From: Mumia quercus
GTDB lineage: Bacteria > Actinomycetota > Actinomycetes > Propionibacteriales > Nocardioidaceae
Reading direction: 5' to 3'
DNA: 64,000 nt
Assembly: GCF_025506335.1 (NCBI RefSeq)
Contig: NZ_JANZYO010000003.1
Coordinates: forward strand, 62,001-126,000
The notes under the pieces were generated by a model that saw only the letters and a list, made by a program, of their open reading frames with translations, was not told the origin of the DNA and made no database searches. Below are positions 4,476 through 61,580 of the stretch, in pieces. How positions within the stretch are numbered: the first letter of the stretch is position 1; every line of letters starts with the position of its first letter. Made by a program: the position numbers and the translations under genes.

Positions 4476-4503
4476 CGTTACCGATCCGAGACCGCATGTG
4501 ATA

Positions 4504-4568
4504 TTGACCACACGCTCGCTCTGGGAATAGTTTTCAACGAATTTCCGAGTCTTTGAGATGGATTTTCA
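4504..4568 (+). promoter_or_regulatory. promoter and candidate operator of the murR-type gene
   Basis: The A+T-rich stretch in the divergent gap has TTGACC at 4504-4509 and TAGTTT at 4528-4533, an 18-base spacing that makes a good -35/-10 pair reading rightwards. TTTTCA occurs at 4531-4536, overlapping the -10, and again at 4563-4568, 32 bases apart on the same strand. The element 4524-4546 has GGAA/TTCC ends. These are candidate binding sites for the autoregulatory RpiR-type protein. Confidence 0.5.
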
Positions 4569-4580
4569 CGGAGTGGGGCC

Positions 4581-6318: not shown

Positions 6319-6360
6319 CACGACCCCACCACCATCACCACCACAGGGAAGGCACTTCAG

Positions 6361-21992: not shown

Positions 21993-22550
21993 GTGGACGC
22001 GAAGCAGATCGAGGGTGACCTCGCGCTGGACCAGACGTACATCTCCGAGGCCGACATCCAGGCCCGCCTCCGGGAGCTCGCCGCGCAGATCGCGCGCGAC
22101 TACGAGGGCGAGGACCTGCTGCTCGTCGGGGTCCTCAAGGGCGCGGTGATGGTCATGGCCGACCTCGCCCGTGCGCTCGAGCGCGACGTCGAGATGGACT
22201 GGATGGCCGTGTCGTCGTACGGCTCCGGCACGACGTCGTCCGGCGTGGTGCGGATCCTCAAGGACCTCGACACCGACCTCACCGGCCGTCACGTCCTCAT
22301 CGTCGAAGACATCATCGACTCCGGTCTCACGCTGTCGTGGCTGACGTCCAACCTGCGCTCCCGCAAGCCGGCCTCGGTCGAGATCTGCACCCTCCTGCGC
22401 AAGCCCGAGGCGCTGAAGATGGCCGTCGACGTGAAGTACGTCGGGTTCGACATCCCCAACGCGTTCGTGGTCGGCTACGGGCTCGACTACGACGAGCGCT
22501 ACCGCAACCTGCGCGACATCGCGACGCTCGCTCCGCACGTCTACTCCTGA
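21993..22550 (+). CDS. hpt: hypoxanthine phosphoribosyltransferase
   Basis: A 185-residue purine-salvage enzyme joining hypoxanthine or guanine to PRPP. The PRPP loop [17 protein letters not shown] (about 92-108), the N-terminal [17 protein letters not shown] and the C-terminal [18 protein letters not shown] are canonical. GTG start. The tilS-hpt-ftsH order is widely conserved in bacteria. Confidence 0.94.
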
Positions 22551-22564
22551 GTCCGGGCGGACGC

Positions 22565-22583
22565 CCGCACGAGATCCGTGCGG
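22565..22583 (+). terminator. short hairpin after hpt
   Basis: CCGCACG (22565-22571) and CGTGCGG (22577-22583) form a perfect 7-bp stem with a 5-base loop, 14 bases after the hpt stop. No U-tract follows, so it is a weak terminator candidate or an attenuator upstream of ftsH. Confidence 0.4.
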
Positions 22584-22693
22584 ATCCTGGGAACATGTTC
22601 GCGGGTGCCGATCGTTGAAGCACCAGGGGACAAGACTCGTCCTGCCCTCGTGGCGCGGACGTGTACCGTCGGTTCCCGTACCCATTCCTACGC

Positions 22694-22723
22694 AGGAGGA
22701 GCGAGGCGCGGCCTCGGATCATG
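22694..22723 (+). promoter_or_regulatory. ftsH ribosome site separated from the ATG by a hairpin
   Basis: A near-perfect Shine-Dalgarno AGGAGGA (22694-22700) lies 20 bases before the ATG at 22721, too far for direct use. Between them CGAGGC (22702-22707) and GCCTCG (22711-22716) make a 6-bp stem with a 3-base loop. Folding it reduces the effective spacing to about 5 bases. No other in-frame start lies in the gap. Confidence 0.55.
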
Positions 22724-41218: not shown

Positions 41219-45380
<4,162 letters not shown>

Positions 45381-45426: not shown

Positions 45427-46539
45427 TCAGCCCGCGCGCGTGCTCCTGCGGCCGGTGCCAGGCGGTGCGTCGTCCTCGTCGCGGAGGAGCCACCGCGCAC
45501 GTGGATGGGTGAATGGTCCGAACACGACGTCGACCGCTCGTGTGGAGAGCACCGCCGACCACACGATCGCGATGACGACGAGCCCGACGATCGTCTCGAC
45601 GCTGTCACGGTCCACCGAGATGAGGCCCATGTCGGTGGCGACGACGATCGGGAAGAGGTGCAGCAGGTAGACGTTCATGGTGCGCGCGCCCCAGGGCGTG
45701 AAGAACGTCTGGCGGCGTGGCACGAGCGCGAGGACAGCGGCGATCATGACGAAGGACACCGCCATCACGGCGGCCCGCTCGAAGCCGGCCCACCACTCCT
45801 CGTTGCCCAGGCGGGCGTAGTTCCACTCGCCCTGGAACCACTTGCGGAGCATCAGCTCGCGCATCAGGTCGGCCCTCGTGACCGCCAGCACGGTGACCAG
45901 CACCACCAGCACCCCCGCCAGGCAGCGGACCCACCACTTCGACAGCACGTGAAGCAGCGTGGTCAGTCCGCCGCGCTCGTGGAGGCACCAGCCGGCGACG
46001 AAGAACGGGAGGAACACGAGCGTACGGCTGGTCGCCGCAAGCGTGCCGGCGCCGGGGGAGTAGCCCGCGACGCACGCCACCAGCACGCTGACGAGGAACG
46101 GGTGCCTCATCAGCGCGAAGAGCGGCAGTGTCAGCCGCCAGAGCGCGAGCGCCAGCAGGAACCACAGAATCCACCGAGGCGTGATGAAGTCGATCTGCAG
46201 CACGCCGAGCCGCCACCACGCGAAGAGCGTCCACACGCACTGGAAGATGACCAGCGGGAGGACGATGTGCGTCAGGATCCCGCGGGTCTCGCGGGAGGTC
46301 AGTGCCCCGCCGTGCGAGAAGCGCCCCGAGATGAAGGCGAACAACGGCATGTGGAACGAGTAGATGGCCAAGTACAGCCCGAACGCGAGGTCGCTGCGGT
46401 TCGGCACCTCGATCGCGTGCCCGACCACGACCAGGGTGATCGCGATCCACCGGGCGTTGTCCCACAGCGGCACCCTGACGGGCCGCGCCGGCGCCGTCGT
46501 CGCGTCCGCGGATCCGGTCTGGCGTGCCGCGTCGGTCAT
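45427..46539 (-). CDS. fucose-4-O-acetylase-like membrane acyltransferase
   Basis: A 370-residue polytopic protein with about ten helices belonging to the acyltransferase 3 family. The N-terminal LWDNARWIAITLVVVGHAIE with its conserved His in the first helix, followed by SFHMPLFAFISGRF, matches the fucose 4-O-acetylase-like group. It should transfer acetyl groups to a glycan at the membrane. The start overlaps the stop of the large polymerase gene (ATGA), tying glycan acetylation to polymer assembly. Confidence 0.87.
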   Translation of the reverse strand: MTDAARQTGSADATTAPARPVRVPLWDNARWIAITLVVVGHAIEVPNRSDLAFGLYLAIYSFHMPLFAFISGRFSHGGALTSRETRGILTHIVLPLVIFQCVWTLFAWWRLGVLQIDFITPRWILWFLLALALWRLTLPLFALMRHPFLVSVLVACVAGYSPGAGTLAATSRTLVFLPFFVAGWCLHERGGLTTLLHVLSKWWVRCLAGVLVVLVTVLAVTRADLMRELMLRKWFQGEWNYARLGNEEWWAGFERAAVMAVSFVMIAAVLALVPRRQTFFTPWGARTMNVYLLHLFPIVVATDMGLISVDRDSVETIVGLVVIAIVWSAVLSTRAVDVVFGPFTHPRARWLLRDEDDAPPGTGRRSTRAG

Positions 46540-49500
46540 CGCTCGAAGAACGCCTCGACGACGCGCTCGGTGGCGTGGCCGTCCTGGAGCCGGTTGAACC
46601 GTACGTTGAACGCCTCGATGGCCTCGGTGTACTCCATGCGGACGCCGTCGGCGTCGCGGACGGCATCGACGACCTCGGCCGTGGTCTGCAGGAGCGGACC
46701 CGGTGCCGTGGGGGCGAAGTCGAACAGCGGAGGACGGCCCTCGAAGTACGTGTCGAGGTCGGGGACGAAGAACACCGCGGGCTTGCCCGTGAGCGCCCAC
46801 TCGAAGCGCAGCGACGAGTAGTCGAGGATCGCCACGTCGGCCGCGAGGACGAGGTCGTTGATCTCCGGGTAGTCGGTGACGTCGACCACCTGACCGAAGC
46901 GACGCTCGCGGTCGAGCTCGCGCTGGTTGTTGTTGTGGCCCCGCAGGAGGAGCACGACGTCCTCGCCGACACCGGCGCAGAACTGCGCGAGGTCGAGCTC
47001 GTCGAAGAGCTTCGCGGCGAAGACGCGCGTCGTGAGGGCGTCACGGTACGTCGGCGCGTAGAGGACGACCTTCTTGGCCGGGTCGATGCCCAGCCGGGCG
47101 AGGACCTCGGTCCGACGGGCCGGGGCGTCGGCGTTGACGAGCGCGTCGGAGCGCGGGTAGCCGGTCACCAGGATCTCGCCCGCGTAGTCGTACTCGCGGC
47201 GGTAGAACTCGGCGCACTCCTCGCTGGGCACGAGGATCGCGTCCCACTCGGCGTTGCGGCGGTCGATCTCGCGGCGGATCCGGCCGGCCGAGAGGTTCTT
47301 GCCCTCCCAGAACGTGCGGCCCATGGACTTGAAGGGGTAGCCGTGGAACGTCTCGAGGAACCGCTGGTGCGCGCCCTTGCGGAAGAACGAGTCGAAGTCG
47401 ATGTTGTTGCAGAGGTAGCGCGAGCGGCCGAGCGCCTCGAACCACGCCCGCGACCCGATCAGCAACGGGACCGCGCCCTCGGGCACCTCGGTGGACCAGC
47501 TCGCCACACCCCAGTACAGCGTGAGGTCGGGCCTCACCTCGCGGAGCCGCTCGTGGATCGCGCGCTGGCTGTCGGTGGCGAACTCGCCGCGGTAGCACTG
47601 CAGGAGGACGCTGTCCTCCGGCTCGTGGGGGGTCTCCTGGTACCAGGTGCGCAGCTGACGCTGCCCGTACTTCGAGCGCTCGAGGTCGGTCAGAGGCGCG
47701 AAGACCGTGGCACGGGCGCCGCCGTCCTTGGCGACCGTGAACCGGACGCCGAGAGCGTCCGTGCGGGTCTCGACGGGACAGGACTCGAGGTACGCGGCGG
47801 TGGCCGACACCTTGGCCTCGCGTCCGTCGTCCAAGGTCAGCAGGAGCGCGTAGTGCCCCGGGTCGAGCGGCACCGCAGCGCCCCCGAAGGGCCGGTAGGA
47901 GGCGGGGATGCGCACGGTGAAGGCGTCCGCGCCCGCCGGCGTGACGTCGTCGGCGTGGAAGAGGATGCGGTCGTTGGCGAGTCTCAGCGTCGCGAGCTCG
48001 GCGGCGGACACGCCCTCGGTCTCGACGACGAGCGTGAGCGCGTCCTCGGTGAGCTCGGCGCTGCGGACGTCGGCGCGCGGGCTGTCGGCGCGCAGCAGGG
48101 TCTCGCCCCGGCTCGAGCGCTCGGCGGCGACCGAGCCCGTCGCGCGCGCTCCGACACGGGCCGGCAGGTGCTGCGCCCAGACGAGCGGCTTGCGCCCACC
48201 GGGGGTGACGACGCGCAGAGACCAGGTCGCGGCGAACGGGATCCCGTCGGCGGTCGTCGGCGGGAGCTCCAGCGAGAACGCGTAGCCCGACCCTGTCTCC
48301 GAGACGCGGGTCTGCACGTCCTTGGCAGCACCGGGCGACGACGCGACGACGTGGGTGAGCGGCGCGTCGCTGGCCACGGTCCCCACGACCGTGCGGCCGT
48401 CGACCAACACGTCGACGAGCTCGCCCACAGGCGGCTCGGCGGTGAGGACGAAGCCGTCGGTCGGGTCCCACTGCGCGACCACGAGCAGGTCGCCGAGGCG
48501 CCGGGCCGACAAGGCGTGTCCGGCGGCCGACGATCCCGGCACCGGCTGGTGGACCGGGCCGGAGCGGACGACGCCGCGGGCGTCGACCGTGATCTGGAGC
48601 GTCCACCGGCTGCCGGAGGGCAGTGCTGCTGCATCCACGACGGCACGGAAGGCCGAGGTGTCGTACGACGCGTTGAAGGTGTCGGCGGTCCGTGTGGCCT
48701 CGACGTCGACCAGCGGCTCGACGGGGAGGGGGATCTCGTCTCCGGTCTCGGAGCGCAGCACGACGCGGACGGTCGGGACGGCGTCGGCGAGGTCGACGCC
48801 GGGCACGTACGCCCACCCCTCGAGCACGAGGGAGTCTCCCTCCCACCGGGCGCGCTTGAGACGGGCGTGGAGCGCCGTCTCGTTCGCTCCGAGCTCCCTC
48901 AGGTGGAGGGGGACGTCACGGCCGACGATCTCGGCGAGGGGCACGTCCGCGAAGACCCGGCCGTCCACGACCTTCGTCGGCGGGACGTTGCCCCACTCGC
49001 GCAGGTACGCGGCGAAGTCCTCGATCGCGTCCCAGGCGCCGTCCGCGGCCAGCCACGTCCGGACCTTCTGGTGGAAACGCACCAGCGCCCACGCCTCCGG
49101 CGTCGCCTCGTCGACGTAGATGCGCATCGCGTCCTGGAGCACACGTCGGTACTCCTCGGTGGCGGCGTCGGCGTGGGAGATGAAGAGCGACAGGTCGGTG
49201 TCGAGGACGCGGGCGACCCAGCTGGCGTACACCGACGCCGAGGCCTCCTGCGAGACGATCGCCTGGGCCTGCGCCTTGACCGTGATCCGGTCGGTGAGGT
49301 TCTTGAGGACGTGCTTCTGCTGGCTGGTGGACGTGCGGTTCTCGCGCATCCGCCAGTGGTAGGTCGGGCGCTTGAGGATGTCGAAGGTCGAGGCGCGGAC
49401 GTACGCGGCGACCATCGGGACGTGGTCCTCGTAGGCGATCCCAGCCTCGAAGCCGCCGACCTTGTCGAGCCAGAACTCCCGACGGAACATCCGGTTGGCG

Positions 49501-50060
49501 GCGATGACGTCCAGCAACGCCTCGGGGAAGTCGTCGATCGTCACGCCGATCCGGTCCTGGCCGTGCACGATCTTGACCCACCAGGGGTTGCTGAGGCGGC
49601 CGTTCTTCGTACGGCGGACAGACCCCACCGAGAAGTCCGAGCCCGACTTCTCGAGCGAGCGCACCATGTACGCGAATGCGCCCGGGGGAATGGTGTCGTC
49701 GGCGTCGACGAAGGTCAGGAAAGTCCCCCGCGCGCGCGTCACCCCGTGGTTGCGGGCCGAGCCCTGGCCCTCGTTCTGCTGGTGGAGCACGCTCAGGCGC
49801 GGCTCCCGGGTGGCGTACTCGCGCAGGATCTTGAGGCTCGAGTCGGTCGAGCCGTCGTCGACCGCGATCACCTCGAGGTCGGTCAGCGACTGCCCGAAGA
49901 CGCTGTCGAGGCACTCCTCGACGTACTCCTCGACGTTGTAGACCGGGATGACGACGCTCAGGCGCGGCGGCTTGAGCCCACCCGCCCGTCCGCGTACCCC
50001 GCTGGGAAGCCAGTGCCAGGCTCTGCGTGCCGCGCGCGACAAGGCGGTGTCTCGGGCCAT
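46536..50060 (-). CDS. giant GT2 plus CDP-glycerol glycerophosphotransferase (TagF-type) protein
   Basis: A 1174-residue multidomain enzyme. Residues about 34-330 are an intact GT2 domain: LSVVIPVYNVEEYVEECLDS, VIAVDDGSTDSS and TFVDADDTIP. The middle (about 390-780) is a series of beta-sandwich-like segments. From about 795 (KYGQRQLRTWYQ) to 1174 lies a TagB/TagF-type glycerophosphotransferase with KVVLYAPTYRDAL, VAILDYSSLRFEWALTGKPA and YFEGRPPLFDFAPTAPGPLL. It probably builds a wall teichoic-acid-like polymer of sugar and glycerol- or related polyol-phosphate at the inner membrane face. ATG 50060 has GGAG and a minus-strand TACAGT upstream. Confidence 0.87.
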   Translation of the reverse strand: MARDTALSRAARRAWHWLPSGVRGRAGGLKPPRLSVVIPVYNVEEYVEECLDSVFGQSLTDLEVIAVDDGSTDSSLKILREYATREPRLSVLHQQNEGQGSARNHGVTRARGTFLTFVDADDTIPPGAFAYMVRSLEKSGSDFSVGSVRRTKNGRLSNPWWVKIVHGQDRIGVTIDDFPEALLDVIAANRMFRREFWLDKVGGFEAGIAYEDHVPMVAAYVRASTFDILKRPTYHWRMRENRTSTSQQKHVLKNLTDRITVKAQAQAIVSQEASASVYASWVARVLDTDLSLFISHADAATEEYRRVLQDAMRIYVDEATPEAWALVRFHQKVRTWLAADGAWDAIEDFAAYLREWGNVPPTKVVDGRVFADVPLAEIVGRDVPLHLRELGANETALHARLKRARWEGDSLVLEGWAYVPGVDLADAVPTVRVVLRSETGDEIPLPVEPLVDVEATRTADTFNASYDTSAFRAVVDAAALPSGSRWTLQITVDARGVVRSGPVHQPVPGSSAAGHALSARRLGDLLVVAQWDPTDGFVLTAEPPVGELVDVLVDGRTVVGTVASDAPLTHVVASSPGAAKDVQTRVSETGSGYAFSLELPPTTADGIPFAATWSLRVVTPGGRKPLVWAQHLPARVGARATGSVAAERSSRGETLLRADSPRADVRSAELTEDALTLVVETEGVSAAELATLRLANDRILFHADDVTPAGADAFTVRIPASYRPFGGAAVPLDPGHYALLLTLDDGREAKVSATAAYLESCPVETRTDALGVRFTVAKDGGARATVFAPLTDLERSKYGQRQLRTWYQETPHEPEDSVLLQCYRGEFATDSQRAIHERLREVRPDLTLYWGVASWSTEVPEGAVPLLIGSRAWFEALGRSRYLCNNIDFDSFFRKGAHQRFLETFHGYPFKSMGRTFWEGKNLSAGRIRREIDRRNAEWDAILVPSEECAEFYRREYDYAGEILVTGYPRSDALVNADAPARRTEVLARLGIDPAKKVVLYAPTYRDALTTRVFAAKLFDELDLAQFCAGVGEDVVLLLRGHNNNQRELDRERRFGQVVDVTDYPEINDLVLAADVAILDYSSLRFEWALTGKPAVFFVPDLDTYFEGRPPLFDFAPTAPGPLLQTTAEVVDAVRDADGVRMEYTEAIEAFNVRFNRLQDGHATERVVEAFFER

Positions 50061-51273: not shown

Positions 51274-52374
51274 TTGAGAGTCGTCAGCGTCGTGGGCGCA
51301 CGTCCACAGCTCGTCAAGCTGGCACCCGTGGCGAAGGCGTTCGCCGCGTCCGACCACGAGCACCTCGTCGTCCACACGGGTCAGCACTACGACCCCAACC
51401 TGTCGGACGTCTTCTTCCAGGAGCTCGGCATCCCCGCGCCGGACCGTCATCTGGGCGTCGGCTCCGGCTCGCACGCCGAGCAGACTGCCGCGGCGCTCAC
51501 CGGTCTCGAGGCCTTCCTGCAGGAGACGCGCCCCGACTGGGTGCTCGTGTACGGCGACACCAACTCCACCCTGGCGGCGGCCCTCGCGGCCGTGAAGCTC
51601 CAGCTGCCCCTCGCCCACCTCGAGGCGGGCCTGCGCTCCTTCAACCGTGCGATGCCCGAGGAGCACAACCGCGTCCTCACCGATCACGCGGCCGACCTCC
51701 TGCTCGCGCCCACCGAGCTCGCCATGAAGCACCTGGCAGGCGAAGGGCTGGCCGAGCGCTCGGTGCTCGTCGGTGACGTGATGGTCGACGTCTGCCTCGG
51801 CATCCGCGACGACGTGCTCGCCGGGCGCATCCCCACGCTCACCGACGTCGCGGGCCTCGACCGCGACCAGCCGTACGTCGTCGCGACGCTCCACCGGCCG
51901 GCCAACACCGACGACCCGGCGCGGCTCGACCAGATCCTGGACGCCCTCGCCGCTCTCCCCGTCCCCGTCGCCCTGCTCGCCCACCCGCGGCTCGTCGCCG
52001 CCGCGCAGCGCCACGGCCTCGCCCTCGCCCGCGGCTCGGTGAGCGTCGGTGAGCCGCTGGCGTACGCCGCGCTCGTGCAGGCGGTCCTCGGGTCGCGTGC
52101 CGTCGTGACCGACTCGGGCGGTCTCCAGAAGGAGGCCTTCCTCCTCGGCACCCCGTGCACGACGGTCCGGACGGAGACGGAGTGGGTGGAGACGCTCGAC
52201 GACGGGTGGAACGCCCTGGTCCCCGACCCGCACCTCCTCGACCGCAAGGAGTGGGCGGACCTGGTCCTGCGTGAGCCGGGCGCTGCGCCGACCTCGATGC
52301 CGTACGGCGACGGTCGGGCCGCTCGACGCGTCGTCGACGTCCTGGCGTCGACGGCCTCGGACACGACCGCATGA
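51274..52374 (+). CDS. wecB: UDP-N-acetylglucosamine 2-epimerase (non-hydrolysing)
   Basis: A 366-residue enzyme. SVVGARPQLVKLAPVAKAF, VHTGQHYDPNLSDVFF, VYGDTNSTLAAALAAVK, HLEAGLRSFNRAMPEEHNR and TDSGGLQKEAFLLGTPC are the conserved active-site blocks of WecB/WbpI. It makes a ManNAc-type UDP-sugar, either UDP-ManNAc or, in context, UDP-ManNAc3NAcA. TTG at 51274 with GGGGAAG upstream is preferred; GTG at 51262 would add four residues. It starts a coupled operon and overlaps the next gene by 4 bases. Confidence 0.92.
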   Translation: MRVVSVVGARPQLVKLAPVAKAFAASDHEHLVVHTGQHYDPNLSDVFFQELGIPAPDRHLGVGSGSHAEQTAAALTGLEAFLQETRPDWVLVYGDTNSTLAAALAAVKLQLPLAHLEAGLRSFNRAMPEEHNRVLTDHAADLLLAPTELAMKHLAGEGLAERSVLVGDVMVDVCLGIRDDVLAGRIPTLTDVAGLDRDQPYVVATLHRPANTDDPARLDQILDALAALPVPVALLAHPRLVAAAQRHGLALARGSVSVGEPLAYAALVQAVLGSRAVVTDSGGLQKEAFLLGTPCTTVRTETEWVETLDDGWNALVPDPHLLDRKEWADLVLREPGAAPTSMPYGDGRAARRVVDVLASTASDTTA

Positions 52375-53696
52375 CGGCGCCTCACCTGCTCTTCTTCGCG
52401 ATCGGCTTCCCGCCGGCCGCCAAGAGCTCGACCTACCGGCTCCGTGAGACGGCGAACCAGTTCGCCGCGCTCGGGTGGCGGGTGACCGTGGTGAACGCCG
52501 ACGAGGCGATGTGGCGGCAGGACTTCGGAGTCGACCCCTCGTTGCTCGAGGGCCTCCACCCGGGGGTCCGTCGTGTCGAGCTGCCGCTGCGGCGCCCGGA
52601 CCTCGAGACCGACGTGCGGAGCTTCTCCGAGGAGCGGGCGCTCGACCCCGCGAAGTGGCTCAACGCCTACCGGAAGCGGTCCATGAAGCCCTTCCCCGAG
52701 CCGATCTACGGGCGCTGGAAGAAGGCTTTGGCCGCCGCGGCGGACGAGATCCATGCCGAGGACCCCGTCGACCTGGTGCTCGCCAGCTGTGCCCCGTACG
52801 TCCTGCTCTCGGCCGCACGGCACCTGTACGAGACGCACGGCGTGCCGTACGCGATCGACTTCCGCGACGGGTGGTCCATCGACGTCGTCGAGGGCGAGGT
52901 GGCGTTCGACGAGGACTCGCGTCGCGGGCGCATCGAGCGGGAGACGCTCGGGGACGCGCTGTCCGTCTGGGTCGTCAACGAGCCGATCGCCGGCCACTAC
53001 CGCACGCGCTACCCCGCGCTCGCCGACAGGATCCACGTCGTTCGCAACGGGTTCGACGCGCAGAGCCGCCCGGTGCCGTCGACAGAGGCCTCGACGGTCC
53101 CCCTCACCTTCGGCTACCTCGGCACCCTCAACTTCGGCGCCGCGATGCTGAAGACCGTCCTCGACGCGTGGCGTGAGGCGCGTGCGTCCGAGCCGCTGCT
53201 GAGCGGCGCGACTTTCGAGGTCCGCGGCCACGTCTCCTCGGGGGCGCGGCGCGAGACCAACGCCGTGGCCCAGGTGCTCTCGGAGTCCGCCGAGGACGGC
53301 GTCGTCTTCGGGGGTCCCGTCGCCAAGGGCGACGTCGCGTCCACGTACGAGCGCTGGGACGCGCTCACCCTGATCCTGATCGGCGGCGGCTACGTGACCT
53401 CCGGCAAGGTCTACGAGTACGCCGCGACCGGTCTCCCGATCGTCCCCGCCCACGACCGCGACCACGACGCGGCGCACGTCCTGCGCGGCTACCCGCTCCT
53501 CGCAGGGACGCCGTCGCTGGACGTCGAGGAGCTCGCCGAGAGCTTCCGTCAGGCCGCACGACTCGCCGTCGGTGCCTCCGAGAGCCTCCGCGCGCAGGCC
53601 CGGGCGCACGCCGCGCCGTTCGAGCGGCCTCACCAGATGGAGCCTGCGGTGAGGGCGCTGGCCGCCCTCGTGCAGCGCGAGGAGGCCACCGCATGA
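52371..53696 (+). CDS. GT4-like glycosyltransferase
   Basis: A 441-residue GT-B-fold glycosyltransferase. The N-terminal LLFFAIGFPPAAKSSTYRL with a Gly/Pro-rich loop, IDFRDGWSIDVVEG, IHVVRNGFD as interdomain hinge, FGYLGTLNFGAAM and SGKVYEYAATGLPIV fit family 4 retaining transferases. Donor and acceptor are unknown; the operon suggests a wall glycan. Start and stop overlap neighbours by 4 bases each. Confidence 0.82.
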   Translation: MTAPHLLFFAIGFPPAAKSSTYRLRETANQFAALGWRVTVVNADEAMWRQDFGVDPSLLEGLHPGVRRVELPLRRPDLETDVRSFSEERALDPAKWLNAYRKRSMKPFPEPIYGRWKKALAAAADEIHAEDPVDLVLASCAPYVLLSAARHLYETHGVPYAIDFRDGWSIDVVEGEVAFDEDSRRGRIERETLGDALSVWVVNEPIAGHYRTRYPALADRIHVVRNGFDAQSRPVPSTEASTVPLTFGYLGTLNFGAAMLKTVLDAWREARASEPLLSGATFEVRGHVSSGARRETNAVAQVLSESAEDGVVFGGPVAKGDVASTYERWDALTLILIGGGYVTSGKVYEYAATGLPIVPAHDRDHDAAHVLRGYPLLAGTPSLDVEELAESFRQAARLAVGASESLRAQARAHAAPFERPHQMEPAVRALAALVQREEATA

Positions 53697-55789
53697 GCAC
53701 GGTCGTCCTCCTCGCCGGCTACACGCCCGGCCGGGAGTCCCTGGGCCGCGTCATCGCCAAGCTCCAGGCCGAGGGCGCGCAGGTGGTGCTCGCCGGAATG
53801 ACAGACGTCGAGGCCACCCACGCCGACCTGGGTGCGGACAGCGTCCGGTCCCTCCGGCGGCACGTCGAGTCCGACCCCGAGTTCTTCCGCACCTGTCGTA
53901 CGGTCTCGGCTCCTGTCGAGACCTGGATGCACGTCGAGCGCGACGACGAGCTGATCGCGCGGTGCCGCGAGGCCGACGTCGTGGTCGCCCTGGACACCGC
54001 CGCGGTCTACTCCGCGTGGCGGATCTCCCGCCTCAATCCGAGCGCCGACGTACGCCACGGGGCGATGCCCGGCTACGAGGCCCTCCTCGCCCGGAAGGCC
54101 GCGCCGGACGCCGGACGACAGGGACGTGACGACACGGGCCGGCCCGGTCGGGCGCGAGCCCGCGCTGCCGTCGCCCGGCGTGCGCGCGCCACCGCCGCGT
54201 CGTCGGCCGTCCTGAGCCGACCCGTACGCCCGGTATGGACCCGGTTCGTCGCCTCGCGGCGCCTGTCGCCGGGGCGCCGCGCGGCGCTCGCTGCTCCGGC
54301 GGTGACCTCGCTGTACGCCTCTGGGGAGACCGAGCAGGCGCGTGCGCTCGCCGACGCCGTCCTCGCGACGCTCCCGGTCCGTCACCGCGCGAACCTGCTC
54401 GGCACGGTGGCCGAGCGGCTCATCGACCGCGGGATCACGCCGCCGATGCTTCGCGACGCGGTCGCCACCGAGCTCGACTACGCAGACAAGCTCCACCGCG
54501 CCGGGGACGCCGAGGGCGCGGCCGCCTCGGTGCTGCAAGCCGTGCGTCTGGGCTTCCACCGTGCCGTGCACCTCGACACCACGACGTCGCCTCTCGCCGA
54601 GAACCCGCGCGAGTTCACCGCTCCGCTCCGGTCGAGCGCGGCGGTCGCCGCCGTGTCCCGACGTCGTGGCCGGCAGCTGCCGGCTGCTCCGCCGCCCGCC
54701 GGACGTCCTGCGCGCATCATCGTGGCGACGCACGGCAACACCAACTTCGTCGGGCAGCTGAGCGACCACCTCGTCGAGCACCCGGACGCTGAGATCCGCG
54801 AGCTGGACCTCGCCACCGTCGGCAAGGCCGCCACCCTGCCTCGCGACCCTCGCCGCATGCTCGCCGCCCTGCTCGCGGACGAGGGGCCGGCGTTCGCGCT
54901 CGCCGAGAAGTCGCTGAGGGAGCACCTCGACTGGGCGGACGTGGTCTTCATCGACTGGGTCACGCCGTTGGTCCGGCTCCTGACGATGGTGGACCCGGGG
55001 ACGACGCGGATCGTCGTCCGCCTCCACAGCTACGAGGCGTTCACCCCCTGGCCGCACCTGCTCGACCTGTCAAGGATCGACGACTTCATCTTCGTGAGCG
55101 ACCACCTCAAGGACCTGACGATCGCCCAGGTGCCCGCTCTCGAGGCACCCGGCGGTCCGCGCGTGCACGTCGTCCCCAACGCCATGGACCTCAAGCGCTT
55201 CGTACGCCCGAAGGCCGACGACGCGCGGTTCACCGTCGGGTTGATCGGCTACCAGGTGGTGGCGAAGGACCCCCGCTGGGCCCTCGCGGTGCTGCGCGAG
55301 CTGCGCGCTCACGACCCGCGCTACCGCCTGCGGCTGGTGGGTCACCCCTTCGACCGTCGCCTGAGCGCGGCGGCGGACGCGTACGGCGAGGCGTTCGAGC
55401 GCGAGCTCGAGGCCCTGCGCGCCGAGGGCGCCATCGAGGACTACGGCTTCACCACCGACCTGCCGGAGGCGGCGGTCGGGATCGGCTCGATCCTCTGCTC
55501 GTCGGTGCGGGAGGGCTCCCCGGTGGCGCTGATCGAGGCGGCTGCGAGCGGCGCGGTCCCGGTCGTCCGCGACTGGCCGTTCTTCGCCGCGACCGAGCAC
55601 GGCCCCCGCACGCTCTACCCGTCCGAGTGGGTCGTCGAGACCCCGGCCGAGGCGGCAGCACGCATCCTCGCCGCCACGAAGGACCTGCCCTCGTGGCGTG
55701 CGACGTCGGCGGCAGTCTCCGCCGAGGTCGTCGCGCGGTGGGACATCGCCGCCACCGGTGATGCGTACGAGGCCCTTCTGCTCGGTTGA
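53693..55789 (+). CDS. large glycosyltransferase with unidentified N-terminal half
   Basis: A 698-residue protein. The C-terminal part (about 340-698) is GT4-like: IIVATHGNTNFVGQL, VVRLHSYEAFTPWP, HVVPNAMDLKRF, VGLIGYQVVAKDPRWALAVL and SVREGSPVALIEAAASGAVP, the acidic motif of the donor site. The first about 140 residues form an alpha/beta domain (VVLLAGYTPGRESLGRVIAK and VVVALDTAAVYSAW), followed by a basic Ala/Arg-rich linker and helices of TPR-like character. The N-terminal role is unknown. The stop lies inside a perfect palindrome. Confidence 0.78.
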   Translation: MSTVVLLAGYTPGRESLGRVIAKLQAEGAQVVLAGMTDVEATHADLGADSVRSLRRHVESDPEFFRTCRTVSAPVETWMHVERDDELIARCREADVVVALDTAAVYSAWRISRLNPSADVRHGAMPGYEALLARKAAPDAGRQGRDDTGRPGRARARAAVARRARATAASSAVLSRPVRPVWTRFVASRRLSPGRRAALAAPAVTSLYASGETEQARALADAVLATLPVRHRANLLGTVAERLIDRGITPPMLRDAVATELDYADKLHRAGDAEGAAASVLQAVRLGFHRAVHLDTTTSPLAENPREFTAPLRSSAAVAAVSRRRGRQLPAAPPPAGRPARIIVATHGNTNFVGQLSDHLVEHPDAEIRELDLATVGKAATLPRDPRRMLAALLADEGPAFALAEKSLREHLDWADVVFIDWVTPLVRLLTMVDPGTTRIVVRLHSYEAFTPWPHLLDLSRIDDFIFVSDHLKDLTIAQVPALEAPGGPRVHVVPNAMDLKRFVRPKADDARFTVGLIGYQVVAKDPRWALAVLRELRAHDPRYRLRLVGHPFDRRLSAAADAYGEAFERELEALRAEGAIEDYGFTTDLPEAAVGIGSILCSSVREGSPVALIEAAASGAVPVVRDWPFFAATEHGPRTLYPSEWVVETPAEAAARILAATKDLPSWRATSAAVSAEVVARWDIAATGDAYEALLLG

Positions 55790-55800
55790 TAGCATCAACC
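55784..55800. promoter_or_regulatory. palindrome at the glycosyltransferase/aminotransferase junction
   Basis: GGTTGAT (55784-55790) and ATCAACC (55794-55800) form a perfect 7-bp inverted repeat with a 3-base loop. It contains the upstream TGA and a possible -10 TAGCAT (55790-55795). It could be a short terminator or an operator for the aminotransferase gene 47 bases downstream. Confidence 0.45.
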
Positions 55801-55846
55801 CGCTCGCGTCGCTGCGGGCAGCCCGATGAGCAAGGAGGCTCAACCC

Positions 55847-56953
55847 ATGGTGGATCCGGCTTCTGCGGTGATCCCGCCGGCCAGGCCCGAGATCTCTGAG
55901 GAGGACATCGAGGCCGCGGTCCGGGTCCTCCGATCGGGGATGGTCGTCCAGGGTCCGGAGGTCGCCGCCTTCGAGGACGAGTTCTCCAAGGTCGTCGACG
56001 GTCGGCACTGCGTCGCGGTGAACTCGGGGACCTCGGCTCTGCAGGTCGCGCTGATGGCGATGGGCGTCGGCCCGGGAGACGAGGTCGTCGTCCCGTCCTT
56101 CTCGTTCGCCGCGAGCGCCAACGCCGTACGCCTGGTCGGTGCCGAGCCGGTCTTCGCCGACATCGACCCCGTCACCTTCACGCTCGATCCCGACGCGGTC
56201 GCCGCAGCGCTCGGTCCGAGGACGGCGGCGATCATGCCCGTGCACCTCTACGGGCTTCCCGCCGACATGGCCGGCCTCGGCGCGCTGGCCGACCGGCACG
56301 GCCTCGCGATCATCGAGGACGCGGCACAGGCCCACGGCGCGCAGGTCGACGGCCAAGCCGTCGGCTCCTTCGGTGCGACCGGCTGCTTCAGCTTCTACCC
56401 GACCAAGAACATGCACTCCCTCGAGGGCGGGATGGTCACGACGGGCGACGCCGAGATCGCGCGCACGCTCCGGCTCCTGCGCAACCAGGGCATGGAGCAG
56501 CGCTATGCCAACGAGATCGTCGGCGCGAACGTCCGCCTCACCGACGTCGCCGCAGCGGTGGGCCGGTCGCAGCTGACCCGGCTCGCGGAGTGGACCGAGC
56601 GGCGTCGCTCGAACGCGGCGCGCCTGTCCGCTGAGCTCGAGGGCGTCGTCGTCCCGACCGAGCCGTCCGGCTACCGGCACGTCTACCACCAGTACACGGT
56701 GCGGGTGGACGGCGACCGCGACGCCTTCCAGGAAGCGCTGCGCAGCCACGGCGTCGGCAGCGCGGTGTACTACCCGACGCCGATCCACCGGCTGCGGCCT
56801 TTCCTCGACGCCGACGGACGCCCGGACAGCCGCTGGGAGCTGCCCGAGACCGAGCGCGCCGCCCGTGAGGTCGTCTCGCTCCCGGTCTTCCCGAGCCTGA
56901 CCGACGACGACCTCGGTCGCATCGTCGCCGCCGTGAACGAGGCGGCGCGATGA
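55847..56953 (+). CDS. DegT/DnrJ/EryC1 sugar aminotransferase
   Basis: A 368-residue PLP enzyme. VNSGTSALQVALMAMGVGPG, DAAQAHGAQVDGQAVGSFG and the PLP-lysine motif FSFYPTKNMHSLEGG with Lys187 are canonical; HVYHQYTVRV lies in the C-terminal domain. It would aminate a keto-sugar nucleotide, most likely the 3-keto group made by the adjacent Gfo/Idh/MocA protein (WbpE/WlbC- or GnnB-like role). ATG 55847 with AGGAGG upstream is chosen over 55826, which would bury that ribosome site. Overlaps the next gene by 4 bases. Confidence 0.9.
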   Translation: MVDPASAVIPPARPEISEEDIEAAVRVLRSGMVVQGPEVAAFEDEFSKVVDGRHCVAVNSGTSALQVALMAMGVGPGDEVVVPSFSFAASANAVRLVGAEPVFADIDPVTFTLDPDAVAAALGPRTAAIMPVHLYGLPADMAGLGALADRHGLAIIEDAAQAHGAQVDGQAVGSFGATGCFSFYPTKNMHSLEGGMVTTGDAEIARTLRLLRNQGMEQRYANEIVGANVRLTDVAAAVGRSQLTRLAEWTERRRSNAARLSAELEGVVVPTEPSGYRHVYHQYTVRVDGDRDAFQEALRSHGVGSAVYYPTPIHRLRPFLDADGRPDSRWELPETERAAREVVSLPVFPSLTDDDLGRIVAAVNEAAR

Positions 56954-57957
56954 GTGCCGCCCTGCTCCGCGCCGGTCTCGTCGGGCTCGGGGCGATGGGG
57001 CGCAACCACGCCCGAGTCCTGTCCGGTCTCGCCGAGGTCGAGCTGGTCGGCATCGTCGACCCGGTGCCGGGCGCACGCGGCCCGAGCGGCGTGCCGGTAG
57101 TGCCTTCTCTCGACGCGCTGCTGGAGCTCGGGGTCGACTACGTCGTCGTGGCGTGCCCGACGGCCGAGCACGAGACGGTGGGCCTCGCCCTCGCCGGCGC
57201 CGGGGTGGCCGCGCTGATCGAGAAGCCGCTCGCGCACTCGGCCGACGCTGCGGCGCGCCTCGTCGAGGCGTTCGAGGCGAAGGGCCTCGTGGCCGGCGTC
57301 GGTCACATCGAGCGCTACAACCCCGCCCTGCAGAGTCTGCGGGCCAGGCTGGAGGCCGGCGAGCTCGGCGAGATCTACCAGGTCGTGACCCGGCGGCAGG
57401 GGCCGTTCCCCGCCCGTATCGCCGACGTAGGCGTCGTGAAGGACCTCGCGACCCACGACATCGACCTCACCGGTTGGGTCACTCAGCAGGACTACCGGTC
57501 CGTCGCCGCGCACACGTCGCGGCGCAGCGGGCGCGAGCACGAGGACATGGTGGTCGTGGTCGCCGAGCTGGAGGGCCAGACGATGGCGAACCACATCGTC
57601 AATTGGCTCAGCCCGCTCAAGGAACGCTGCACCATCGTGACCGGTGACCTCGGGTGCTTCGTCGCCGACACGCTCACCGCCGACCTGACGTTCTACGCGA
57701 ACGGTGCCGTCGCGTCGGAGTGGGAGATCTCGCGCAACTTCAGGGGTGTGTCCGAGGGGGACATGACCCGGTACGCGATCCCGCGCCGCGAGCCTCTCCT
57801 CGTCGAGCACGAGGCGTTCCGCGACGCGGTCCTCGGTCGCTCGGCAGACATCGTCACGCTCCGCGAAGGGCTGCGCACCGTGGAGATCTCCGAGGCGGTG
57901 CTGCGCTCGGCCGAGACCGGGTCCACGACGAAGGTCGACGGCGCGAGACGACCATGA
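56950..57957 (+). CDS. Gfo/Idh/MocA sugar-nucleotide 3-dehydrogenase
   Basis: A 335-residue NAD-dependent oxidoreductase. The Rossmann start AGLVGLGAMGRNHARVL, the EKPL catalytic lysine motif (about 92-95), GHIERYNPAL and VVKDLATHDIDL fit the family, closest in appearance to UDP-GlcNAc 3-dehydrogenases (GnnA/WbpB/WlbA). It should oxidise the C3 hydroxyl of a UDP-GlcNAc-type substrate for amination by the upstream aminotransferase. Coupled by overlaps on both sides. Confidence 0.88.
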   Translation: MSAALLRAGLVGLGAMGRNHARVLSGLAEVELVGIVDPVPGARGPSGVPVVPSLDALLELGVDYVVVACPTAEHETVGLALAGAGVAALIEKPLAHSADAAARLVEAFEAKGLVAGVGHIERYNPALQSLRARLEAGELGEIYQVVTRRQGPFPARIADVGVVKDLATHDIDLTGWVTQQDYRSVAAHTSRRSGREHEDMVVVVAELEGQTMANHIVNWLSPLKERCTIVTGDLGCFVADTLTADLTFYANGAVASEWEISRNFRGVSEGDMTRYAIPRREPLLVEHEAFRDAVLGRSADIVTLREGLRTVEISEAVLRSAETGSTTKVDGARRP

Positions 57958-59552
57958 GCACCCCCGACGTGACGGTCGTCGTACCGGTCTTCAACACCAT
58001 GCCGTACCTCGAGCGCTGCATGGACTCGCTCCTGGGGCAGACCCTCGGCACGGACCGCCTCCAGATCGTCGCCGTCGACGACGGGTCGACCGACGGGTCG
58101 GGGGAGCTGCTCGACCGGTGCGCGGCCGCGCACCCCGGCACCGTCGTCGTCGTGCACCAGGAGAACTCCGGCGGGCCGGCTGCGCCCTGCAACGCCGGGC
58201 TCGACCTCGCGACCGGTCGCTACGTCTACTTCATCGGCGCCGACGACTACCTGGGGGAGGAGGCGCTCGAGCGTCTCGTCGAGGCGGCAGACGCCTGGGA
58301 CGCCGACGTCGTCTTCGGTCGCATGGTCGGGGTCGGCGGCCGCTACGTCCACCAGGACGTCTTCGCCGAGACCCGCAAGGACCTCGACCTGTACGGCGAG
58401 GAGCTCCCGTTCGCTCTCTCGAACACGAAGCTCTTCCGCCGCAGCCTCCTCGAGGAGCACGGGATCCGGTACCCGCTCGGTCTGCGGATCGGGAGCGACC
58501 AGCCGTTCACCGTCGCCGCGATGGCCCGCGCGCGCAGGATCTCGGTCCTCGCCGACTACGACTACTACTTCGCCGTCAAGCGTGAGACCGCGAGCAACAT
58601 CTCGTACGCGACGCCGTGGCAGGAGCGGCTGAGTGGCACGGGCGCCCTGATGGACCGCATCGCCGACATCCTCCCGGCGGGCGAGCGTCGCGACGCCGTC
58701 CTCCGCCGCCACTTCGTCTGGGAGCTCAATAAGCTCCTGCGCGCCGACTTCCTCGCCCTGTCCGAGGAGGACCAGGTGAGCCTGGCCGCCGGCGTCGGCG
58801 AGCTGTGCGACCGCTACCTGACCGAGGGCATCGCGCGGTCGCTCTGGGCGAGCGCGCGCAGCCGGATGCGGCTCGCGCAGGCCGGGGACGTGGCGCGGCT
58901 CCGCCAGGTGATCGCGCTGCAGCGCGACGAGGCCGTCGTGCCGCTCCACCTCGAGCCCGAGGTCGCCTACTCCGCGTGGCCGGGCTTCCGTGACAGCGAG
59001 GTCTCCTACCCCGACTCCTGGTACGAGGTGACGCGCGAGTCCACCTGGGACCGCATCGTCCGCGGCACCTCGGTCGAAGCTGTCGCGTGGAAGGAGGGGC
59101 GGCTCCAGATCCGCGGCACCCTCAAGGTCACTCCGGGCAGCGCCCCCCAGGTCAGCGTCGTCGTCGCCGACCTCGGCGCGGACGGCTCTCCGAGGGCTTC
59201 CCGCCGCGTCGACGCCTCGACGCCGCTCGACGGCGAGGAGGCCCAGGTGTCGCTGAGCGCGAGCGACGGCGGGGCCCGCTTCGAGGCGGTCGTGGACCCG
59301 TCGAGGTTCGCGTCGCGTGCCCTCCCGTACCGCGCCGAGGTCTTCCTCCGCCTGCGGGTCGGGTCCTTCGTCTACGACCGGCCCGTCTACCCGCCGGAGC
59401 CGCGGCAGGTCGCCGACGTCCGACGACGCCTGCGTCGGCTCCGTTACGTCGCGAAGCGACAGGGTGGCGCCCTCGTCCTCGTGGTTCGACGTCCCCCCTC
59501 CGGGAAGGCGGCTGCGCGCAAGCGCTCGACCGTCCTCCCCAACGAGAAGTAA
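57954..59552 (+). CDS. GT2 glycosyltransferase with C-terminal beta-rich domain
   Basis: A 532-residue protein. Residues 1-300 are an intact GT2 fold: VTVVVPVFNTMPYLERCMDS, IVAVDDGSTDGSG, YVYFIGADDYLG and the catalytic-base region RIGSDQPFTVAAM. Residues about 375-500 are a beta-sandwich-like domain opening with AWKEGRLQIRGTLKV; the same opening pattern (RWEGDSLVLEGWAYV) occurs in the giant polymerase at 46536-50060. The C terminus is basic (KAAARKRSTV). Likely adds a sugar to the wall polymer. TAA stop. Confidence 0.85.
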   Translation: MSTPDVTVVVPVFNTMPYLERCMDSLLGQTLGTDRLQIVAVDDGSTDGSGELLDRCAAAHPGTVVVVHQENSGGPAAPCNAGLDLATGRYVYFIGADDYLGEEALERLVEAADAWDADVVFGRMVGVGGRYVHQDVFAETRKDLDLYGEELPFALSNTKLFRRSLLEEHGIRYPLGLRIGSDQPFTVAAMARARRISVLADYDYYFAVKRETASNISYATPWQERLSGTGALMDRIADILPAGERRDAVLRRHFVWELNKLLRADFLALSEEDQVSLAAGVGELCDRYLTEGIARSLWASARSRMRLAQAGDVARLRQVIALQRDEAVVPLHLEPEVAYSAWPGFRDSEVSYPDSWYEVTRESTWDRIVRGTSVEAVAWKEGRLQIRGTLKVTPGSAPQVSVVVADLGADGSPRASRRVDASTPLDGEEAQVSLSASDGGARFEAVVDPSRFASRALPYRAEVFLRLRVGSFVYDRPVYPPEPRQVADVRRRLRRLRYVAKRQGGALVLVVRRPPSGKAAARKRSTVLPNEK

Positions 59553-59565
59553 GAAGGAGCAAGCG

Positions 59566-60849
59566 ATGCAGATCTGTGTCGTCGCGCTGGGCAAGATCGG
59601 CCTGCCGCTCGCGGTGCAGTTCGCCTCGAAGGGCCACCGTGTCGTCGGAGCCGACGTCGACGAGCGCGTCGTCGACCTGGTGAACCGCGGTGTCGTGCCG
59701 TTCCCGGGTGAGGCCAACCTCGACGTCCTGCTGCAGAAGGTCGTCGCCGACGGCCTCCTCACGGCGACCACCGACACGCCGTCGGCCGTCGCCGAGTCGG
59801 ACGCGGTGGTGCTGGTCGTGCCTCTGTTCGTCGACGGCGACGGCGTCCCCGACTTCGCGTGGATGGACGCCGCCACCAGGTCGGTCGCCGAGGGTCTGCG
59901 CCCCGGCACGCTCGTGAGCTACGAGACCACGCTCCCCGTCGGCACGACGCGCAACCGTTGGGCGCCGATGCTCGAGGAGGTCTCGGGGCTGCGTGCGGGC
60001 GAGGACTTCTCGCTCGTCTTCAGCCCGGAGCGCGTGCTCACCGGTCGGGTGTTCGCCGACCTGCGCCGCTACCCCAAGCTGGTCGGCGGCATCGACGAGG
60101 CGTCGGCGCGCGCGGGGGTCACCTTCTACGGCGAGGTCCTCGACTTCGACGAGCGCCCGGACCTCGACCGCCCGAACGGCGTGTGGGACCTCGGCTCTGC
60201 CGAGGCGGCCGAGCTGGCGAAGCTCGCCGAGACGACCTACCGCGACGTCAACATCGGGCTCGCCAACCAGTTCGCGCGCTACGCCGACACGATCGGCGTG
60301 GACGTGGAGGCCGTCATCGAGGCCTGCAACACGCAGCCCTACAGCCACATCCACCGGCCGGGGATCGCCGTCGGCGGCCACTGCATCCCGGTCTACCCCC
60401 GGCTCTACCTGTGGAACGACCCGTCCGCGACGGTCGTGCGGTCGGCCCGTGAGGCGAACGCGGCGATGCCGGCGTACGCCGTCGACCTCCTCGCGGCGGC
60501 GTACGGCGACCTCGACGGCCTGGCCGTCCTCGTGCTCGGGGCGGCGTACCGCGGCGGGGTGAAGGAGACCGCGTTCTCGGGGGTGTTCGGCACGGTCGAG
60601 GAGCTGCGTGCGCGCGGCGCGGTGCCGTACGTCTCCGACCCGCTCTACATCGCCGACGAGCTGGCGGCGCTCGGCCTTCCGCCGCACCGCGGCGAGGCCG
60701 TGGGCGCGGCGGTCGTCCAGGCCGACCACGACGAGTACCGACGTCTCGCCCCTGCGGACCTGCCGGGCGTGACCGTCCTCGTCGACGGACGCCGGGTCAC
60801 CGATCCCGACCTCTGGCAGGGCGTACGCCGGGTCGTCATCGGCGGCTGA
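59566..60849 (+). CDS. UDP-HexNAc 6-dehydrogenase (WbpA/WecC type)
   Basis: A 427-residue NAD-dependent enzyme oxidising C6 of a UDP-N-acetylhexosamine to the uronic acid. VVALGKIGLPLAVQFASKGH binds NAD, ETTLPVGTTRNRW and SPERVLTGRVFADL are family motifs, and the catalytic Cys273 is in AVGGHCIPVYP. The C-terminal LGAAYRGGVKETAFS closes the active site. Whether it acts on UDP-GlcNAc (WbpA) or UDP-ManNAc (WecC) is not settled by sequence alone. AGAAGGAGC precedes the ATG. Convergent with the acetyltransferase gene. Confidence 0.9.
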   Translation: MQICVVALGKIGLPLAVQFASKGHRVVGADVDERVVDLVNRGVVPFPGEANLDVLLQKVVADGLLTATTDTPSAVAESDAVVLVVPLFVDGDGVPDFAWMDAATRSVAEGLRPGTLVSYETTLPVGTTRNRWAPMLEEVSGLRAGEDFSLVFSPERVLTGRVFADLRRYPKLVGGIDEASARAGVTFYGEVLDFDERPDLDRPNGVWDLGSAEAAELAKLAETTYRDVNIGLANQFARYADTIGVDVEAVIEACNTQPYSHIHRPGIAVGGHCIPVYPRLYLWNDPSATVVRSAREANAAMPAYAVDLLAAAYGDLDGLAVLVLGAAYRGGVKETAFSGVFGTVEELRARGAVPYVSDPLYIADELAALGLPPHRGEAVGAAVVQADHDEYRRLAPADLPGVTVLVDGRRVTDPDLWQGVRRVVIGG

Positions 60850-60865
60850 GCCGCGCCAGGCTCAG
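60846..60865. terminator. bidirectional hairpin with both stop codons
   Basis: CTGAGCC (60846-60852) and GGCTCAG (60859-60865) pair perfectly over 7 bp with a 6-base loop. The TGA of the dehydrogenase and the mirrored TGA of the convergent acetyltransferase both lie in the stem. Confidence 0.6.
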
Positions 60866-61473
60866 GCGTCCTGCTCCTCGAGCACCTGTGTGCCGTCCGG
60901 CAAGGTGACCTCCACGTACGTCCGATGGTCGTGCGCGGAGCGGAGCACGCCGTCGGCGTCGGGCTCGAGGCGTCGGCCCGTCCGGTCGACCCAGCCGATC
61001 CGGCGGGCGGGGACGCCGACGACGAGCGCGTGGTCGGGGACGTCGGTCGTGACGACCGCGCCTGCGGCGACCATCGCCCACCGGCCGATCCGGACGGGAG
61101 CGACGCAGACCGCGCGAGCCCCGATCGAGGCGCCTGTCTCGACCGTCACGCCGACCGGCTCCCAGTCGCTCGCACGCTTCAGCGCCCCGTCGGGGTCGAC
61201 GGCGCGGGGCAGGTGGTCGTTGGTGAAGACCGCCGCGGGTCCGACGAAGACACCGTCACCGAGCTGCGCCGGCTCGTACACGAGCGCATGGTTCTGGAGC
61301 TTGCACCGGTCGCCGATCCGGACACCGCTGCCGACGTACGCGCCGCGGCCGACGATGCACTGCTCGCCGAGGACCGCGTCCTCCCGGATCTGCGCGAGCT
61401 CCCAGACCGTCGTGCCGTCGCCGAGCCTGGCGGAGTCGGCGACCTGGGCGGTCGCCTTGACGGTAGCGGACAA
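60862..61473 (-). CDS. WbpD/WlbB-like hexapeptide N-acetyltransferase
   Basis: A 203-residue left-handed beta-helix acyltransferase. Hexapeptide repeats run from about residue 10 to 150 (VLGEQCIVGRGAYVGSGVRI, CKLQNHALVYEPAQLGDGVF, VGPAAVFTNDHLPRA), the arrangement of WbpD/WlbB enzymes that acetylate the 3-amino group of UDP-GlcNAc3N-uronic acid. It fits the aminotransferase and 3-dehydrogenase nearby. TTG at 61473 with GAGGAGG six bases upstream is the start. A minus-strand TAGGAT (61512-61517) is a candidate -10. Confidence 0.87.
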   Translation of the reverse strand: MSATVKATAQVADSARLGDGTTVWELAQIREDAVLGEQCIVGRGAYVGSGVRIGDRCKLQNHALVYEPAQLGDGVFVGPAAVFTNDHLPRAVDPDGALKRASDWEPVGVTVETGASIGARAVCVAPVRIGRWAMVAAGAVVTTDVPDHALVVGVPARRIGWVDRTGRRLEPDADGVLRSAHDHRTYVEVTLPDGTQVLEEQDA

Positions 61474-61555: not shown

Positions 61556-61580
61556 CCGGCGAGATGGAGAAGATGCCGTG

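Follow-up and report, generated by a model that had tools for sequence, protein, structure and literature searches.

The window analyzed here, 64,000 nucleotides of the Mumia quercus genome (bases 62001-126000 of contig C7; genome 4.10 Mb), encodes together the five enzyme types of the pathway by which the Wbp proteins of Pseudomonas and the Wlb proteins of Bordetella make uridine diphosphate (UDP)-2,3-diacetamido-2,3-dideoxy-mannuronic acid (UDP-ManNAc3NAcA). We consider it probable, at roughly 85%, that the five enzymes form this pathway, in which a 6-dehydrogenase, a 3-dehydrogenase, a 3-aminotransferase, a 3-N-acetyltransferase and a 2-epimerase would jointly convert UDP-N-acetylglucosamine (UDP-GlcNAc) to UDP-ManNAc3NAcA. 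We favor this reading because of where the epimerase and the acetyltransferase fall in sequence comparisons, the conserved linkage and co-occurrence of the genes, the nuclear magnetic resonance (NMR) precedent from Streptomyces griseus, and the probable teichoic acid genes of the same genome. Three glycosyltransferase genes (52371-53696, 53693-55789 and 57954-59552) are interspersed among the five, and their products, one of them TarS-like, would assemble a teichuronic-acid-like chain. An earlier note on this DNA had proposed both the sugar and a teichuronic-like wall polymer, and the proposal is supported by the placement of the two enzymes, by co-occurrence across actinobacteria, and by gene content and order resembling those of the S. 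griseus utr locus. Judged by its genes, the locus is very probably of this already known utr type and is largely an expected find.

The five sugar enzymes

All five open reading frames named in the earlier note are present and belong to the families given there, with Pfam matches far beyond chance (Epimerase_2, E = 5.1e-88; DegT, 6.7e-124; GFO_IDH_MocA, 8e-18; Hexapep, 3e-23) and, for the 6-dehydrogenase, a match above cut-off to the NCBIfam nucleotide sugar dehydrogenase model TIGR03026 (E = 9.3e-85). The residues it had pointed to are likewise in place, namely Lys187 of the aminotransferase (counted from the start at 55847), Cys273 of the dehydrogenase within GGHCIP, and the EKPL motif of the oxidoreductase, which contains Lys92.

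The 2-epimerase (51274-52374, plus strand), the most informative of the five, is best matched in the PDB by the UDP-GlcNAc3NAcA (2,3-diacetamido-2,3-dideoxy-glucuronic acid) 2-epimerase of Thermus thermophilus (8SXY, 336 bits), whereas E. coli WecB (1F6D) scores 133 bits. The accessible part of the Thermus study describes three substitutions by which that enzyme is adapted to its substrate: Trp307 in place of Arg, Tyr96 in place of His or Gln, and Ala18 in place of Leu or Met (PMC10622841). Trp304 and Tyr93 of the window enzyme are the equivalents of the first two. A seven-site pattern, Q-K-L-Y-D-E-W, is identical in all 44 epimerases of more than 55% identity, the window's own included, and the second epimerase of the same genome reads E-R-L-L-D-E-R at those sites. 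On this basis the window enzyme is probably a UDP-GlcNAc3NAcA 2-epimerase, in the role of UtrH, WbpI or WlbD. The second epimerase lies on contig C1 in another sugar locus (L109:735-7685) that combines a DegT aminotransferase, a WbcJ-like reductase and this epimerase with its UDP-GlcNAc-type residues; the gene adjoining the epimerase has WbcJ reductase as its best NCBIfam model, below cut-off.

The hexapeptide N-acetyltransferase (60862-61473, TTG start) is encoded on the minus strand, its gene and that of the 6-dehydrogenase converging; the earlier note had given no strand. Its closest PDB match is 3MQG, at 139 bits against 91.3 for the runner-up. By this match, which we take to be Bordetella WlbB, the enzyme is of the WbpD/WlbB type and would fill the UtrJ role. 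The DegT/DnrJ/EryC1 sugar aminotransferase (55847-56953, plus strand, with an alternative start at 55826) matches PF01041 at 414 bits and would act as UtrA or WbpE. In the PDB its highest scores are with 7B0D (304.5 bits) and 2OGA (277.1 bits), followed by WbpE chains in third to fifth place (245-248 bits; 3NYU, 247.7 bits).

The Gfo/Idh/MocA oxidoreductase (56950-57957, plus strand) is a probable sugar 3-dehydrogenase in the UtrB role, with GnnA (7BVJ) as its best PDB match. Its best NCBIfam model, an archaeal UDP-GlcNAc 3-dehydrogenase, reaches 181.3 of the 450 bits required, and the assignment to that family was rejected on this ground. The 6-dehydrogenase (59566-60849, plus strand) would correspond to UtrD or WbpA. 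It falls below the cut-offs of the UDP-ManNAc (UDP-N-acetylmannosamine) dehydrogenase models (NF008286, 184.8 bits against 459; archaeal NF040825, 248.1 against 750) and of the TviB model as well. Among its PDB matches, Pyrococcus 4R16, named as a hypothetical UDP-ManNAcA (UDP-N-acetylmannosaminuronic acid) dehydrogenase, reaches 214 bits, and no WbpA chain was recognized among them.

Distribution and linkage in other actinobacteria

Orthologues were counted in two partly overlapping samples, one of 78 genomes that includes the source genome and one of 148 genomes of the class with completeness of at least 97, together about 218 distinct genomes; related genomes among them do not represent independent events. 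The smaller sample holds orthologues of the oxidoreductase in 29 genomes, of the aminotransferase in 28, of the acetyltransferase in 29 (one partial), of the dehydrogenase in 27 and of the epimerase in 21. Aminotransferase, oxidoreductase and acetyltransferase go together (28 of 28 and 29 of 29 genomes, one of them with a partial acetyltransferase). Genome G039 lacks an aminotransferase row because its oxidoreductase lies at a contig edge, and its acetyltransferase is the partial one. For these tallies, oxidoreductase matches of 132.2 bits or less were set aside, the orthologue rows ending at 385.7 bits. Also set aside were the epimerases of G001 and G005 (277-279 bits, 49-50% identity, same genus), which lowers that tally from 23 to 21, and the acetyltransferase matches of G047 (246.3 bits) and G037 (125.3 bits), genomes without an oxidoreductase orthologue, which lowers that tally from 31 to 29. 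In the class sample, for which only part of the genomes without a match are listed, the oxidoreductase was found in 34 genomes, the dehydrogenase in 33 and the epimerase in 26, with G127 counted despite identities of 47% for the dehydrogenase and 51% for the oxidoreductase.

When the samples are combined, the genes are nested: 61 genomes carry the oxidoreductase, 58 of these also carry the dehydrogenase, and 46 the epimerase. The dehydrogenase occurs in no genome that lacks the oxidoreductase, the epimerase orthologue is found only alongside the dehydrogenase, and all 46 genomes with that orthologue have the oxidoreductase. Three genomes (G027, G043 and G153) have the oxidoreductase without the dehydrogenase; the reverse case is seen in no genome. 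The 20 kb around the oxidoreductase gene in these three contain the acetyltransferase, aminotransferase and oxidoreductase genes, and neither the dehydrogenase nor the epimerase found a match there. Their dehydrogenases lie elsewhere, unlinked and 28-40% identical to that of the window, and the one in G043 passes a UDP-ManNAc dehydrogenase cut-off. A minimal set of acetyltransferase, aminotransferase and oxidoreductase genes, without 6-dehydrogenase or epimerase, can be located at about L110:8396-11039, L111:9320-11974 and L114:9036-11695, and in L110 and L111 it adjoins genes for a DUF2142 membrane protein and family GT2 glycosyltransferases.

At the thresholds applied, the five other genomes of the genus all lack the oxidoreductase, the aminotransferase, the acetyltransferase and the dehydrogenase, and two of them have an epimerase of 49-50% identity; the cluster is therefore patchy. 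Elsewhere, six genomes of one genus have the dehydrogenase and epimerase genes next to each other and distant from the other three.

The gene neighborhood was compared across the best 80 of at least 574 oxidoreductase relatives found by profile search in public genomes. These 80 named loci come from Streptomyces (S. anulatus, S. fimicarius, S. microflavus and S. globisporus among them), Micromonospora, Actinoplanes, Nocardioides, Pimelobacter, Glycomyces, Actinomadura, Nonomuraea and others, and among the matches listed the nearest named one is from Nocardioides lijunqiniae (75%). The aminotransferase gene lies immediately upstream of the oxidoreductase gene in 74 of the 80. Gene presence, called by set identity thresholds, was tallied in the 59 loci flanked on each side by at least 9 kb: the aminotransferase is present in all 59, the 6-dehydrogenase and the TarS-like glycosyltransferase in 43 each, the epimerase in 33 and the acetyltransferase in 29, of which 26 have it in the orientation opposite to that of the oxidoreductase. 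Homologues of the glycosyltransferases at 52371-53696 (at least 48% identity) and 53693-55789 (at least 36% identity) were each found in 22 of the 59. All five enzymes occur together in ten, including that of Pimelobacter simplex, and the set of aminotransferase, oxidoreductase, TarS-like glycosyltransferase and dehydrogenase recurs in many named Streptomyces loci.

Order of steps and competing readings

Several observations weigh against a complete UDP-ManNAc3NAcA pathway of the Wbp kind. The window epimerase has Leu16 at the position of Thermus Ala18, Leu being the state described for UDP-GlcNAc enzymes and found in all 44 sequences compared, although Ala18 is a feature of one enzyme and perhaps not defining for UDP-GlcNAc3NAcA 2-epimerases. 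It also passes the NCBIfam wecB model TIGR00236 (261.1 bits, cut-off 210.15), and its assignment therefore rests on the PDB comparison and the residues; we call this model general because the genome's other epimerase exceeds the cut-off as well (242.2 bits). The oxidoreductase is closer by sequence to GnnA (78 bits) than to WlbA (3Q2K, 50 bits), and the 6-dehydrogenase passes only the general TIGR03026 model (284.8 bits, cut-off 189.8), by which its substrate is not assignable. Many of the named loci have no acetyltransferase or no epimerase within about 10 kb. Finally, G033, a close relative with oxidoreductase and dehydrogenase 77-83% identical to those of the window, has no epimerase orthologue, and the final sugar may therefore differ between relatives.

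The earlier note had held that exactly the five steps of Pseudomonas and Bordetella are carried out here. All five reaction types are indeed encoded, and the epimerase and acetyltransferase could be placed by PDB comparison; the Pseudomonas order of steps is uncertain, as the oxidoreductase is not clearly of WbpB or WlbA type and the dehydrogenase is placed in its general family only. In Euryarchaea, amination at C3 comes first. The same product might also be reached in that order here, with the oxidoreductase, aminotransferase and acetyltransferase converting UDP-GlcNAc to UDP-GlcNAc3NAc (the 2,3-diacetamido-2,3-dideoxy-glucose form), the 6-dehydrogenase then giving UDP-GlcNAc3NAcA and the epimerase inverting C2. 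We regard this order as a tentative option, the less favored of the two. The preference of the oxidoreductase for GnnA, repeated in a profile search of the PDB (103 bits against 79 for WlbA), speaks for it, as does the archaeal UDP-GlcNAc 3-dehydrogenase model being the best, if below cut-off. So do the nested counts, with three genomes keeping the three-gene set without a dehydrogenase or epimerase orthologue, and the separability of the dehydrogenase-epimerase pair in the six genomes of one genus. However, a predicted model of the oxidoreductase (mean predicted local distance difference test score 85.6) does not separate GnnA (Z 31.9, 28% identity, root-mean-square deviation 2.4 over 293) from WlbA (Z 31.4, 25% identity, 3.0 over 312), and other, unrelated Gfo/Idh/MocA enzymes score equally high or higher among the matches listed, which do not include Thermus WlbA. 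The exceptional genomes are also few, two of the three belong to one genus, and their distant, unlinked dehydrogenases could act in trans. The Pseudomonas route begins with 6-oxidation (PMC10622841, in its accessible part), and for S. griseus a Pseudomonas-like route is predicted by the authors in the available part of their paper (PMC13274773).

A related and similarly doubtful idea is that actinobacteria possess a module of oxidoreductase, aminotransferase and acetyltransferase that makes UDP-GlcNAc3NAc from UDP-GlcNAc and to which a 6-dehydrogenase and then a 2-epimerase may optionally be added, so that genomes would set GlcNAc3NAc, GlcNAc3NAcA or ManNAc3NAcA as their surface sugar by gene gain and loss. 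The nested gene pattern makes both the step order and the choice among these three sugars directly testable.

The earlier note had offered as its alternative that two separate sugars are made, UDP-ManNAcA by the dehydrogenase and epimerase and UDP-GlcNAc3NAc by the other three enzymes, and this is disfavored by the epimerase residues and the nested co-occurrence. The resemblance of the dehydrogenase to Pyrococcus 4R16, its best specific NCBIfam models being UDP-ManNAc dehydrogenases (both below cut-off), the match of the epimerase to the wecB model and the physical pairing of the two genes in several relatives would fit such a division. Against these stand the Trp304/Tyr93 signature, the wide score gap in favor of the UDP-GlcNAc3NAcA enzyme, the oxidoreductase found in every genome that has the epimerase orthologue, the unmet UDP-ManNAc dehydrogenase cut-off, and the S. 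griseus precedent as given in the accessible part of that work (PMC13274773), and we consider the two-sugar division very unlikely. Still less probable is a role of the aminotransferase and oxidoreductase in a 4-amino or 6-deoxysugar pathway, as the best NCBIfam models of the aminotransferase (PseC, 284.5 bits; ArnB-type, 263.8 bits), the rank of 7B0D and 2OGA above WbpE, and the dehydratase-family and RmlC/RmlD-domain genes at 41219-43992 (minus strand) might suggest, since the two models are far below their cut-offs (423.5 and 631), WbpE scores above ArnB chains, and the two genes travel with the acetyltransferase gene in a set in which deoxysugar genes were not seen.

Surrounding genes and comparison with known systems

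The glycosyltransferase genes of the UDP-ManNAc3NAcA cluster all lie on the plus strand. The product of 52371-53696 is of GT4 type, scoring slightly below cut-off with Glyco_transf_4 (28.3 bits against 28.5) and at 21.6 bits with Glyco_trans_1_4 (cut-off 27); that of 53693-55789 reaches 30.2 bits with the latter model. The gene at 57954-59552, with its start also given as 57951 in the Pfam scan, encodes a UtrC-like GT2 protein (Glycos_transf_2, 103.9 bits) with a TarS linker domain (42.6 bits, cut-off 27).

TagF-like proteins are encoded on both sides of the cluster. On the minus strand, 46536-50060 encodes a 1174-residue protein combining GT2 and CDP (cytidine diphosphate)-glycerol glycerophosphotransferase-type domains (Glyphos_transf, 266.3 bits; Glycos_transf_2, 126.8 bits), a probable wall teichoic acid polymer enzyme adjoining the cluster. 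On the plus strand, a gene for a 1162-residue protein begins at 61578 and continues beyond the window end at 64000 to contig position 127066; the within-window portion alone gives no Pfam match, and the whole gene (L108:578-4066) matches Glyphos_transf at 251.5 bits. Immediately downstream of the cluster lies a gene for an Acyltransferase_3 and SGNH protein (L016:1063-3198; contig C7 127063-129198), a candidate O-acetyltransferase for the polymer. The TarS linker domain also recurs nearby, in another GT2 protein encoded on the minus strand (L016:3202-5310; 56.2 bits).

Farther away, the dTDP (deoxythymidine diphosphate)-rhamnose-type genes at 41219-43992 adjoin a gene for a GT61 protein. At 3474-9682 there are a BadF/BcrAD-type gene (minus strand), an RpiR-type regulator, a SIS-domain protein and a sugar-type ABC transporter, which at a guess form an amino-sugar uptake set. 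The GC content drops to 67% at 6001-10000 and likewise at 22001-24000.

A probable teichoic acid locus lies on contig C9 (L126:7495-18609) and comprises an ABC-2 exporter, a fusion of IspD with a short-chain dehydrogenase/reductase (SDR) in a TarIJ-like layout, TagF-like genes, a pyruvyltransferase and a CDP-alcohol phosphatidyltransferase. The IspD part of the fusion stays below every NCBIfam cut-off, and the genome has no other strong match to the IspD family, so the fusion may be a housekeeping enzyme.

Among known systems, GnnA of Acidithiobacillus ferrooxidans, a UDP-GlcNAc 3-dehydrogenase, is the PDB entry that the oxidoreductase matches best by sequence; its route leads to a lipid A amino sugar and, unlike the pathway proposed here, is not known to involve a uronic acid. 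The Thermus epimerase has the same substrate-marking Trp and Tyr and differs in Ala18, which is Leu in every actinobacterial sequence compared. The Wbp system of Pseudomonas aeruginosa and the Wlb system of Bordetella share the five reaction types, 3MQG is closest to the acetyltransferase, and WbpE ranks near the top of the PDB matches for the aminotransferase; those systems serve O-antigen or lipopolysaccharide, and for the window oxidoreductase the WlbA score is below the GnnA score.

The closest parallel is the utr locus of S. griseus (PMC13274773, Cell 2025), described here from the accessible part of that paper. It comprises an aminotransferase and an oxidase (utrA and utrB), a TarS-like utrC, a dehydrogenase utrD, a 2-epimerase utrH and an N-acetyltransferase utrJ. 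Its product was found by NMR to be a chain of N-acetylgalactosamine and ManNAc3NAcA on a ribitol-phosphate teichoic acid; the polymer is gone on deletion of utrC and serves as the receptor for an umbrella toxin lectin. The M. quercus cluster has the same five sugar-enzyme types and a TarS-like glycosyltransferase, and the consecutive aminotransferase, oxidoreductase, TarS-like glycosyltransferase and dehydrogenase genes at 55847-60849 match the lettering of utrA to utrD. Both genomes also contain TagF-like genes and a cytidylyltransferase-SDR fusion, the latter in M. quercus with the reservation given above. This likeness is one of gene content and order rather than of aligned S. griseus proteins. 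No counterpart of utrE, listed as a 4-epimerase in the part of the paper available, was recognized within the gene group; an epimerase/dehydratase-family gene lies downstream of the cluster at L016:8632-9609. The M. quercus genome differs in belonging to another actinobacterial family and in having the probable teichoic acid genes, this fusion among them, on a separate contig. By analogy, we lean toward a polymer carried on wall teichoic acid, and an architecture like that in S. griseus is plausible; the repeat and the anchor, like the enzyme activities and the step order, are inferred. The wall polysaccharide of Cutibacterium acnes also contains ManNAc3NAcA, according to the accessible part of its description (PMC6598116). 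ManNAc3NAcA being part of a Streptomyces surface glycan that serves as an umbrella toxin receptor (PMC13274773, as above), a patchy cassette in another actinobacterial family widens the range in which such receptor chemistry may occur.

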